NCBI GenBank assembly: GCA_021732525.1
Contig: JAKFUU010000021.1
Coordinates: forward strand, 1-59,094
Reading direction: 5' to 3'
Source: Sphingomonadaceae bacterium
Lineage (GTDB): Bacteria > Pseudomonadota > Alphaproteobacteria > Sphingomonadales > Sphingomonadaceae
DNA length: 59,094 nt
Part shown: positions 36,370-39,897 of the stretch, in pieces
Layout: each line of letters starts with the position of its first letter
How positions within the stretch are numbered: position 1 is the first letter of the stretch
Notes under the pieces: model-generated
Databases searched by the model: none
Seen by the model: the letters and a program-made list of their open reading frames with translations, nothing else
What the model was told of the DNA's origin: nothing
Position numbers and translations under genes: made by a program

Positions 36370-36927
36370 TTAGTTGGTTGCGTAATGTTCTTTCGCATCA
36401 TGCTTCGGATAATTTCCGTTGCCTTTGGAGATAAATCCAGGAACGTCTTTTTCCCAAACTTTGGCAACGCTGGCGCTATTGTTCAAATAGAGCTTGCCAT
36501 CGACAATTTTGTAAACTTTGGGATCGGTGGGCGCCAAGGCGTCGTTCGCACCGATCGCCCATGCGCAATATCCGCCATATTGCGGCGCATATTTGTCGGG
36601 CGATGCTTGGAACGTTTTTGCATTTTCTGCATTGGCGAAGCGATAATCAAAACCTTGATAACGAACCGTAAAATCGGCGCTGCCCGCGACAGGTTCTTTG
36701 CCGGTAAAATAGCTAACCGGATCATAACCGGACAAAGCAAGCGTATCGCCGTCTTCCTTTGTATAGACAGGGCCGGTTGGTTTACCGCCGATATCGGCCA
36801 AAAGCTTGGGTTCGGCGGCCTTGGTTGCCGATTGTTCGGTATTGGCAGCATCTGCAGCCTTTTCGGCCGGCTTGGTGCATGCCGCAACGCTGGTCAACAA
36901 TGCTATAGCAATAAGAGCTTGTTTCAT
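36370..36927 (-). CDS. YHS domain-containing lipoprotein
   Basis: 185 residues from the ATG at 36927 (AAGGAA upstream; a TTG at 36933 is in frame). Lipobox VAAC, then an acidic/Ala linker, then a YHS-type domain (SGYDPVSYF; FTVRYQGFDYRFANAENAKT; YAPQYGGYCAWAIG; DGKLYLNNSASV). NCBI calls this group YHS domain-containing (seleno)proteins, since the Cys of GGYCAW is Sec in some relatives. YHS domains are associated with metal handling. It is the last of three exported proteins encoded in a row, with the Cys-periodic peptide and a second YHS protein upstream. Confidence 0.88.
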   Translation of the reverse strand: MKQALIAIALLTSVAACTKPAEKAADAANTEQSATKAAEPKLLADIGGKPTGPVYTKEDGDTLALSGYDPVSYFTGKEPVAGSADFTVRYQGFDYRFANAENAKTFQASPDKYAPQYGGYCAWAIGANDALAPTDPKVYKIVDGKLYLNNSASVAKVWEKDVPGFISKGNGNYPKHDAKEHYATN

Positions 36928-37062
36928 AATCAAAAATTCCTTTGTGATATGGCCGATGAAGCACTACCATATTTTGATATTCGCGGTAAATCCCAAAAAG
37001 GTTTCAGCATCGATTGGCTGCAAAAGCAAAATTTATCTGATCCGCGATGCATTCAAAAAAAT

Positions 37063-37100
37063 AAAAGGCGGCCCACTCTAGTAAGAATGAACCGCCTTTT
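37063..37100 (-). terminator. Terminator after the Cys-periodic gene
   Basis: AAAAGGCGG (37063-37071) and CCGCCTTTT (37092-37100) form a 9-bp stem. On the minus strand it is followed by ATTTTTTT-like sequence, so it should end the Cys-periodic transcript before the downstream YHS gene. It can also work on the plus strand (CCTTTTTTAGG). Confidence 0.8.
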
Positions 37101-37116
37101 TTAGGTGAAGTTGCTA

Positions 37117-37431
37117 TTAAGCTTTAGGAGCGCAGCCTGCTGCGGCACATCCCTTAGCGGCACAAGCCGATGCTCCGCAACCTGCGGCTGCGCAAGCCGA
37201 TGCGCCGCAGCCCTTAGCAGCGCAAGCCGAAGCCGCACAAGCCGAAGCTGCGCAAGCTGCTTTCGCTTTCTTACCTTTTTTCTTCTTGCTCTTTTTCGCA
37301 GCACAAGGATTTGCACCGCAAGCCGAAGCGGCACATGCGCCGCAGCCTTGAACAGCGGTTGCCGGAGCCGAAGCCATTGCCAATCCGCCAGATACCGCCA
37401 ACAAAGTGGCTAATTTCAACGTCTTATTCAT
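37117..37431 (-). CDS. Exported Cys-periodic low-complexity peptide (metallophore/bufferin-precursor-like)
   Basis: 104 residues: signal peptide to ASAPATA (~26), a short mature start with QGCGACAASACGANPC, a Lys-rich hinge (KKSKKKKGKKAK, ~47-58), then nine Cys each exactly five residues apart (CAASA / CAAKG / CGASA units), 13 Cys in total. Only Ala, Gly, Ser, Lys, Pro and Cys are used after the signal. The 5-residue Cys period recalls HvfA-type precursors (EGKCG repeats) and bufferins, which are copper- or zinc-binding RiPPs, but the DUF692 (MNIO) and DUF2063 partners of those systems are not adjacent. It is an independent gene with its own terminator. Whether it is modified or simply a thiol-rich metal sink is unknown. 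Confidence 0.8.
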   Translation of the reverse strand: MNKTLKLATLLAVSGGLAMASAPATAVQGCGACAASACGANPCAAKKSKKKKGKKAKAACAASACAASACAAKGCGASACAAAGCGASACAAKGCAAAGCAPKA

Positions 37432-37466
37432 AAAACTCTCTCTTTTCTGCTGGGTGGTGAAATTGG

Positions 37467-37498
37467 TGATGACGGAGCATCGTGTGTCTCCGCCATCA
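37467..37498 (-). promoter_or_regulatory. Hairpin between the second YHS gene and the Cys-periodic gene
   Basis: TGATGACGGAG (37467-37477) and CTCCGCCATCA (37488-37498) form an 11-bp stem (one mismatch, G-U in minus-strand RNA), with only a weak U-rich tail. It may attenuate transcription or protect an mRNA end between the two genes. Confidence 0.45.
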
Positions 37499-37508
37499 TA
37501 GGGTCCGA

Positions 37509-37994
37509 TCAGGCGCCAAATTCGGCATCGTCGGGAATAGTCGGCCAGGCTTTATCGGCCTTGCTCACGAAGCCGGGCACGTCGCCAAGCCAGATTGTTT
37601 GCACGCGCTTGTCAAAGTTGAGATATAATTTTCCGTCGACAATTTTCGAGTAAACGGGATCTCCCGGCGCAAGCGCGCCGCGCGACATGGCCCATGCACA
37701 ATGACCGCCATATTGCGGGGCGAATGCTGCGGGATTTTCCTTAAAGGCCGCGGCATTTTCGGAAGAGGCAAAATAATATAAACGGCCATCATGTTTGACC
37801 TTATATTTCTTCAAACCTTTCACGGGTTGGCCGTTACCACGAAAATAGCTGACGGTATCATAGCCACCGACAGCAGCTTCGCTGACTTCTTCATCAATAT
37901 AAACCGGGCGCGCCTCCGCCTGCTGGTTGATTGAGATTAAAGTGACCGGTGCGATTGTTGCAACAAATGCAAACAATAAAAGCGACTTTTTCAT
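37509..37994 (-). CDS. Exported YHS domain-containing protein
   Basis: 161 residues with a signal peptide (cleavage near QQAEARP, ~28) and no lipobox Cys. The YHS domain shows GGYDTVSYFRG, YKVKHDGRLYYFASSENAAA and FAPQYGGHCAWAMS, with the single mature Cys in the same GG-x-CAW position as its neighbour. About 35-40% of visible motif positions match the YHS lipoprotein downstream, so the two are paralogues flanking the Cys-periodic peptide. Likely periplasmic and metal-related by family association; no experimental role known. Confidence 0.87.
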   Translation of the reverse strand: MKKSLLLFAFVATIAPVTLISINQQAEARPVYIDEEVSEAAVGGYDTVSYFRGNGQPVKGLKKYKVKHDGRLYYFASSENAAAFKENPAAFAPQYGGHCAWAMSRGALAPGDPVYSKIVDGKLYLNFDKRVQTIWLGDVPGFVSKADKAWPTIPDDAEFGA

Positions 37995-38138
37995 GAGACA
38001 ACTCCTCTGACAAAATACTCACAAACCTGACCGATGCCGTCGGGGGGAAGGGAATGGCAACGGCCAGGCTTGTGATGATATTCGTTGGGCGATAGCGATT
38101 GGTTTCACTTAACGTGATTTATTTCACAAAATATTGAA

Positions 38139-39247: not shown

Positions 39248-39897
39248 CTAATCCCGCCCTATCACCCATTTTGACACCGCCCAGGCCGCCACTGCACCTG
39301 CAAGCTGCGCCGCGATGAAGGCAGGTGCATTGGCCGGCGCAATGCCCGCGAAACTGTCGCTGAGCGATCTGGCAATGGTAATCGCGGGGTTGGCGAAGCT
39401 GGTCGAAGAGGTGAACCAGTAAGCCGCCGTTATGTATAAAGCAACGCTGGCCGCAACCGCTTGCGGTTTGGCTTTAGTAGTCGCCAATATGGTGAACACC
39501 AGCCGAAGGTGGCGATAAACTCGCCGAGCCATTGACCGGAGCCGGTGCGAATGGCTTGCGAAAATTGGATCACCGGCTGGTCGAACATCAAATGCGCGGC
39601 CCACACGCCGGCAATGCCGCCAATCAACTGCGCCGCGCCATAGGCCAGCAGGTTTGGCGTGCTCAATTCTCCGCGCAAACGAAACACCAACGACACCGCC
39701 GGATTAAAATGCGCGCCCGATATTGGCCCCAGCATGGTGATCAACACGAATAGCATCGCGCCCGTGGCCAAGGTATTACCAAGCAACGCCACCGCAACGT
39801 TGCCGCCCGACAGCTGCTCCGCCATGATGCCCGAACCGACAACGGTGGCAAATAGGAAGAAGGAGCCGGCGGCTTCGGCGAATAGCTTCTGGTTCAT
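39248..39897 (-). pseudogene. Aquaporin/MIP family channel, broken by a frameshift
   Basis: Two consecutive frames make one channel. The first (from 39897) carries MNQKLFAEAAGSFFLFATVV and the first NPA box (AHFNPAVSL); the second carries the other NPA box (FANPAITIARSLSDSFAG) and the last helices. They join near 39503, where the genome reads ACCTTCGGCTGG; one additional G (TTCGGG-CTG) restores GEFIATFG-LVFTILATTKA. With one base fewer, the first frame ends at 39430 without the second pore half. Either a genuine -1 mutation or a sequencing error. Channel substrate (water, glycerol, arsenite) cannot be told. Confidence 0.85.

Follow-up and report, generated by a model that had tools for sequence, protein, structure and literature searches.

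A cysteine-repeat exported peptide encoded between two YHS-domain proteins in Sphingomonadaceae, and its possible place in a sigmaF-type metal-stress response

We describe a locus in a Sphingomonadaceae genome at which a Cys-repeat exported peptide is encoded between two exported YHS-domain proteins, with a sigmaF-type promoter element in front of each YHS gene. Our preferred reading, which we regard as moderately probable, is that the locus is a metal-stress module of the sigmaF type, whose poly-Cys peptide, possibly unmodified, buffers metal or thiols with the YHS proteins as its partners. The use of sigmaF, the binding of metal, the lack of modification and the role of the YHS proteins are what we infer; the regulatory link, i.e. 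the sigmaF-type elements before the YHS genes, is the new part of the finding. The window, meaning the whole stretch of DNA that was analysed, is 59,094 nucleotides long.

All three genes lie on the reverse strand. YHS-A, an exported YHS_seleno-family protein of 161 residues, occupies 37509..37994 and was assigned from its open reading frame and its match to NF041384. The peptide, with 104 residues and 13 Cys, is encoded at 37117..37431, as indicated by its open reading frame, its homologues and the codon changes between orthologues. YHS-B, a second YHS_seleno-family protein, lies at 36370..36927, also on the basis of an NF041384 match. Its reading frame is listed from a TTG at 36933 (36370-36933, 187 residues), and we judged by eye that the ATG at 36927, which gives 185 residues and has AAGGA upstream, is the better start. 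An earlier note on this DNA had placed the peptide gene between two exported YHS-domain genes, and the open reading frames confirm this arrangement, with both neighbours in the YHS_seleno family. The locus is flanked by a nitronate-monooxygenase-like gene on one side and by convergent YceI and IlvC genes on the other. Elsewhere in the window, an aquaporin-like (MIP) gene at 39248-39897 on the reverse strand is read in two overlapping frames of 155 and 118 residues, both of which match MIP, which suggests a frameshift or an assembly error.

YHS-B and YHS-A score 146 and 134 bits, respectively, against the YHS (seleno)protein model NF041384, whose curated cut-off is 70, and both are members of the family. 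Each has the Cys after GGx that is seen in NF041384, here as GG-[HY]-CAW. In YHS-A this is the single Cys, Cys99 in GGHCAW, and it is invariant in 33 aligned rows; in YHS-B it stands in GGYCAW. The earlier note was right that each protein has one Cys in a GG-x-CAW motif, but in YHS-B that Cys is not alone: inspection by eye places a second one in a lipobox-like VAAC, and YHS-B is therefore probably a lipoprotein. The signal peptides of the peptide and of the YHS proteins were likewise assigned by eye. The AF2 model of YHS-A has a mean pLDDT of 86 and is good from about residue 41 onward; when compared with the PDB using Foldseek, it gave no match at E<=0.001, the best hits being the axonemal chains 9d2f_A (adenylate kinase 9) and 9fqr_Xf. 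The accessible part of PMC13188914 lists a selenoprotein, with the motif GxU, among the members of the YHS family.

The peptide begins with a signal-peptide region (residues 1-26, 37354..37431, reverse strand; cleavage site by eye) that contains a GGL motif, found without change in all 23 relatives aligned. Its Cys residues are at positions 30, 33, 38, 43, 60, 65, 70, 75, 80, 85, 90, 95 and 100. They form an N-terminal group (C30, C33, C38 and C43; 37303..37344) and a run of nine at spacing 5 from C60 to C100 (37132..37254), which are separated by a Lys-rich linker at residues 44-59 (37255..37302), all on the reverse strand. The linker, recognized by eye, is the Lys-rich hinge of the earlier note. 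That note had also described a secreted protein of 104 residues and 13 Cys, nine of them exactly five apart, and the reading frame bears this out. The 78 residues after position 26 contain 10 Cys pairs at period 5, and 200,000 composition-preserving shuffles of these residues reached neither this number of pairs nor the nine-Cys run. By eye, there are no aromatic residues and no His after residue 26. No Pfam family matched the peptide, and AF2 predicted no fold for it (pLDDT 46), as one would expect if it were an apo metallothionein-like chain.

A single-sequence database search with the peptide gave no match at E<=0.001, and a plasmid search with it gave none; a three-row peptide profile found 5 database proteins at E<=0.01. 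When three peptides were used to search the order, 29 of 396 genomes had a match at E<=0.01, the weaker matches being doubtful. A 23-row profile that mixed spacing types was rejected as poor, having missed the CxxC peptide of genome G011. A scan of genome contigs with YHS-A yielded 78 loci, 45 of which were taken as Sphingomonadaceae, judging by the titles of the records and by the neighbouring genes (among them, L080 bears the title Sulfitobacter, and no IlvC appears in the flanks fetched for five Sphingopyxis loci). An exported Cys-rich peptide with at least eight Cys lies downstream of the YHS gene at 29 of these 45 loci and at none of the 33 others, leaving 16 Sphingomonadaceae loci with YHS and no peptide. 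Among the 29 peptide loci, ten have the YHS-peptide-YHS order of the window, 13 from Erythrobacter have the second YHS gene 2-3 kb upstream, three have a single YHS gene, and in three from Sphingorhabdus the second YHS protein has a signal peptide and then a Cys-rich domain at its own N terminus, with a further Cys peptide after the fused YHS. Single-frame fusions of a Cys domain to YHS thus occur at the three Sphingorhabdus loci and in four database proteins, one of which is the same as that of L106; the fusion protein of G035 (L017), a genome of the host genus, is identical to that of uncultured Sphingorhabdus L093, which makes Sphingorhabdus, or its GTDB genus, the most likely source of the window.

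What these relatives share is not the spacing of the Cys residues. In 32 proteins, fusions included, we counted 184 spacings of 5, 112 of 3 and 79 of 4, and relatives at the same syntenic place use all three, with up to 23 Cys; the residues before the Cys drift as well. It is thus the density of Cys within an Ala-rich exported chain that is conserved, and a period of five can be ruled out as a diagnostic of the family. The earlier note had named the 5-residue Cys period as the hallmark of HvfA/bufferin-type precursors; these spacings do not support C-x4-C as the defining feature here. Of the two features that it proposed to follow in homologues, the YHS-peptide neighbourhood is kept (29 of 45 loci, ten of the 29 in the full YHS-peptide-YHS order) but the period is not.

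One alternative is that the protein is a disulfide-cross-linked structural component of the envelope, or a low-complexity repeat with no specific function. The low complexity of the peptide, its variable repeat length and its lack of a predicted fold would suit this explanation, as would the persistence of a one-Cys relative in genome G290. However, in seven close orthologue pairs the changes at Cys codons were synonymous 32 times and replaced the residue 4 times; for the other codons after residue 26 the figures are 194 and 47. Since the Cys codons change mostly synonymously, the peptide gene is, by these comparisons, under selection and no accident of repeat growth. Together with the conserved YHS neighbourhood and the stress-type promoter element, this makes a structural or functionless repeat very improbable.

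The number of Cys also follows the presence of YHS. Of 16 peptide relatives (L028-L043), the 13 that have YHS in the fetched flank contain 10-16 Cys, and the three without it, L033, L035 and L043, contain 7, 6 and 1; wider stretches around L033 (L206) and L043 (L208) contain no YHS. Because Cys are few where the YHS neighbour is absent, the Cys run seems to be tied to YHS, which fits one working unit in this small and related sample. The G290 relative (from position 4947 of L208) keeps the signal region, the CGPS motif and an Arg-rich linker, and has lost the Cys run down to 1 Cys. Genome G427, which has no MNIO match, encodes a 7-Cys peptide that looks degenerate and is not adjoined by YHS.

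The evidence for regulation comes from the upstream regions. A count of dyads in 37 regions upstream of YHS-A brought out TGAAA-N18-CGAA and GAAAC-N17-CGAA, which together read TGAAACC-N16-CGAA. This first count omitted 7 of 44 regions with doubtful starts or places, which were restored in the next count; the second count used ATG starts only. The sigmaF-binding sequence of Caulobacter is given as GTAACC-N16-CGAA in the accessible part of PMC3511200, which allows at most two substitutions at the same spacing. A pattern scan of both strands of the 59-kb window found exactly two copies of G[AT]AACC-N16-CGAA, one before each YHS gene on the reverse strand: at 38081..38106, 86 nt before the YHS-A start, and at 36980..37005, 52 nt before the YHS-B ATG. 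Both read GAAACC, i.e. they differ from the Caulobacter sequence by one substitution, and the exact sequence is absent from the window. In 100 shuffled windows the mean number of elements was 0.16, and one window of the 100 had two or more. Between the peptide gene and YHS-B, a consensus scan found a terminator-like hairpin of 17 pairs followed by a T tract (37063..37100, reverse strand); it has by far the longest stem of 5 such sites in 2.2 kb, where 3.2 are expected. This hairpin after the peptide gene suggests that YHS-A and the peptide are transcribed together, and YHS-B separately.

The 45 Sphingomonadaceae loci contain 32 copies of G[AT]AACC-N16-CGAA, all 32 on the coding strand and within 500 nt upstream of a YHS match, at 28 loci. 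Shuffling the 45 loci gave a mean of 1.2 elements anywhere (at most 5 in 30 rounds), and the 33 other loci hold a single element in total, which is not before YHS. The element is missing from 17 of the 45 loci, and its position varies. In Erythrobacter it is absent before 10 of 13 YHS-A genes and present before 10 of 13 second YHS genes; the ten other YHS-peptide-YHS loci have none before the second YHS gene; and in the host genus most YHS loci lack it, including that of the peptide-bearing genome G005 and three YHS-bufferin operons. With the spacing relaxed to N15-17, the pattern also recurs within the ilvC coding sequence. The exact GTAACC-N16-CGAA lies before BufA1, the DUF2282 bufferin precursor, at 16 of 27 MNIO-side places, including BufA1 of the host genome itself, where a second site falls within the last part of the DUF2063 gene, ahead of DoxX-sigma-NrsF. 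The exact form also lies before the peptide relatives of G290 (at 50 nt) and G427 (at 233 nt). No excess of EcfG- or sigma70-like promoters was found.

In Caulobacter, the SigF regulon is induced by chromate and cadmium (PMC3511200) and by copper (PMC8224329), as reported in the accessible parts of these papers, and on this ground we regard the locus as extending that regulon in Sphingomonadaceae. The earlier note had suggested that the three proteins form a periplasmic metal-binding or thiol system. This induction supports the suggestion, as do the gene linkage in homologues and the sigmaF-type element common to bufferin operons.

A related explanation is a sacrificial thiol or redox buffer: the poly-Cys chain, along with the Cys of YHS, would guard the envelope against oxidants and would not bind metal. 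The selenoprotein member of the YHS family is in keeping with it, and on two Rhizobium plasmids (L211 and L220) the gene of a YHS (seleno)protein is followed by those of DsbD and DsbA, which would point to periplasmic thiol redox. The accessible text of PMC8224329 adds that the Caulobacter SigF regulon includes an MsrPQ-like system, cites a severely impaired resistance of the sigF mutant to oxidative stress in stationary phase, and reports that the sensitivity of the mutant to Cr and Cd is unchanged. The same text describes the mutant as copper-sensitive, however, and the Caulobacter sigmaF targets tested in PMC3511200 and PMC8224329 respond to Cr, Cd and Cu but are induced no more than twofold by peroxides, paraquat and diamide, in the parts of the two papers at hand. 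We consider a pure redox buffer improbable.

The earlier note had reported the modifying enzymes of known bufferins, MNIO (DUF692) and DUF2063, as missing. This holds for the window, where the neighbours of the peptide gene are YHS, NMO, YceI and IlvC and neither enzyme is encoded near it, but not for the genome: since one MNIO and one DUF2063 gene are present on another contig (C8), 'missing' is true of the window only. They belong to a complete bufferin operon in the order BufA1, MNIO, DUF2063 and DoxX, followed by an ECF-type sigma factor and NrsF. We tested 29 genomes for MNIO: 21 with a Cys-repeat peptide, one with the one-Cys relative (G290), six with YHS only and one with a doubtful peptide (G297). 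MNIO is present in 20 of the 21 peptide genomes, in one of which its gene is divided between two frames and has an internal TGA (G030:C53:16163-16980), versus 48 of 149 genomes drawn from the whole family, some Cys-peptide genomes among them. Within the host genus, MNIO is found in 11 of 11 YHS-bearing genomes versus 12 of 34 others (one-sided Fisher 1.3e-4) and NrsF in 11 of 11 versus 9 of 34 (1.7e-5), both tests ignoring ancestry and gaps in the MAGs.

These counts raise an alternative: the single MNIO/DUF2063 pair of the genome may act in trans on the peptide, which would then be a RiPP precursor of the bufferin type, exported as a modified metallophore. The promoter type that the peptide locus has in common with bufferin operons would agree with this, and according to the accessible part of PMC12452194 sizeable proportions of Buf1 and Buf2 precursors do not adjoin MNIO genes. 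Yet 28 of 29 MNIO loci (L151-L179) encode a candidate precursor of their own, either BufA1-like or of another kind with Cys, L173 being cut by the end of its contig; the Cys spacing and the residues before the Cys drift; the peptide matches none of the bufferin profiles searched; and G427, with no MNIO match, keeps its 7-Cys, degenerate-looking peptide downstream of an exact GTAACC-N16-CGAA. We rate modification in trans as unlikely. At one MNIO locus, L178 (G290:C2), MNIO comes after a 231-residue ORF that has 12 Cys and in which no signal peptide is obvious; as a candidate substrate it is unusual.

YHS genes also occur within bufferin operons. In three congeners (L010, L018 and L019) a YHS gene lies directly before BufA1-MNIO. 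Two plasmids, L209 and L210, have similar arrangements: that of Thalassobaculum encodes YHS, DUF2282, DUF692, a DNA-binding-domain protein in the place of DUF2063, DoxX, a sigma factor and NrsF, and that of Aminobacter encodes DUF2282, DUF692, a DNA-binding-domain protein, DoxX, a GDCCVxC (seleno)protein and YHS. These plasmids place two families named (seleno)protein, YHS and GDCCVxC, within MNIO systems. Such cases are a minority, with MNIO near YHS in 2 of 16 plasmid regions (a non-random set from the top 25 rows of 73 YHS-matching records, six of them without listed genes) and in none of the 33 other contig loci. At four gammaproteobacterial loci (L114, L115, L141 and L215), a DoxX-like gene directly follows YHS, and the flanks contain no match to MNIO. 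YHS is not mentioned in the main text, as far as accessible, of the paper on the MNIO landscape (PMC12452194), and among the open-access papers searched we found none with YHS together with DUF692 or with DUF2282.

According to our preferred reading of a sigmaF-type metal-stress module, stress in the envelope from copper or another soft metal would release sigmaF from NrsF, and sigmaF-type (ECF) promoters would start two transcripts, YHS-A with the peptide and YHS-B, alongside the bufferin-1 operon. Sec would export the peptide to the periplasm, where its 13 thiols may hold Cu(I) or similar soft metals, or take up oxidizing equivalents, in a metallothionein-like manner. The peptide would work unmodified, or modification would not be required; the number and density of its Cys would matter and their exact spacing would not. 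YHS-A, soluble, and YHS-B, lipid-anchored, would be its partners and most likely would keep the peptide thiols reduced or hand metal on through the single Cys that sits where some relatives have selenocysteine. More speculatively, exported YHS (seleno)proteins may be an unnamed partner of the alphaproteobacterial sigmaF/bufferin system, to which Sphingomonadaceae added unmodified poly-Cys 'export metallothioneins' that do the job of bufferins, are fused to YHS in Sphingorhabdus and lose their Cys where YHS is lost; we hold this wider proposal as tentative and on the doubtful side. With the candidate module, the copper-stress bufferin regulon would gain a protein partner and a peptide family that matches nothing in Pfam, and the widespread, little-characterized YHS (seleno)proteins a testable function. 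It also offers a natural comparison, in one compartment, of enzyme-modified and apparently unmodified Cys peptides.

Among known systems, the bufferins (Buf1/DUF2282, Buf2, Buf_EGKCG and the CxxxxC group; Antoine et al. 2025, PMC12452194, in its accessible part) are the nearest in being Sec-exported Cys-containing peptides. The peptide shares with them a signal peptide, assigned by eye, and several Cys, and it resembles Buf1-type bufferins in particular, which are linked to sigma/NrsF, occur in the same genomes and have the same promoter type. Unlike bufferins, it has no MNIO or DUF2063 neighbour and hence not the order precursor-MNIO-DUF2063, no match to a precursor profile such as DUF2282 in Pfam or NCBIfam, where its only match is NF038108, and no conserved Cys motif or spacing, and it has a YHS partner. 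As gene order, profile and motif all differ, we do not class it as a bufferin; it may resemble one in place and purpose.

CefA (NF038108, 'Cys-every-fifth RiPP peptide') resembles the peptide in its period-5 Cys run, with borderline scores of 24.5 to 30.5 bits against a cut-off of 30: the whole protein reaches 24.5 bits in hmmscan, below the cut-off, and the genome search gave 29.7 bits, or 30.5 bits with the frame neighbours included. The syntenic relatives differ from CefA in using spacing 3 or 4. In 385 genomes of the class, no further NF038108 locus among those fetched is adjoined by a match to MNIO, BufA1 or YHS of the host genome's own type, and by eye several are simple-repeat frames. 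Bacterial metallothioneins are short, Cys-rich and free of aromatic residues, with an expected metal-thiolate chemistry. By composition alone the peptide would fit a metallothionein-like protein; it differs in being exported, in its simple tandem repeat, in having no His and in matching no Pfam family.

The Caulobacter sigmaF regulon (PMC3511200 and PMC8224329, both in their accessible parts) is alike in its GTAACC-N16-CGAA promoter, its bufferin operons and its link to metal stress, and unlike in that no YHS or Cys-repeat gene was seen in the accessible regulon table; YHS is likewise absent from the accessible text of PMC8224329. Finally, YHS-A and YHS-B belong to YHS_seleno (NF041384) and have their Cys at the reported place of the GxU selenocysteine, and what sets them apart within this family is their linkage to a Cys-repeat peptide, to which YHS is fused in some relatives.
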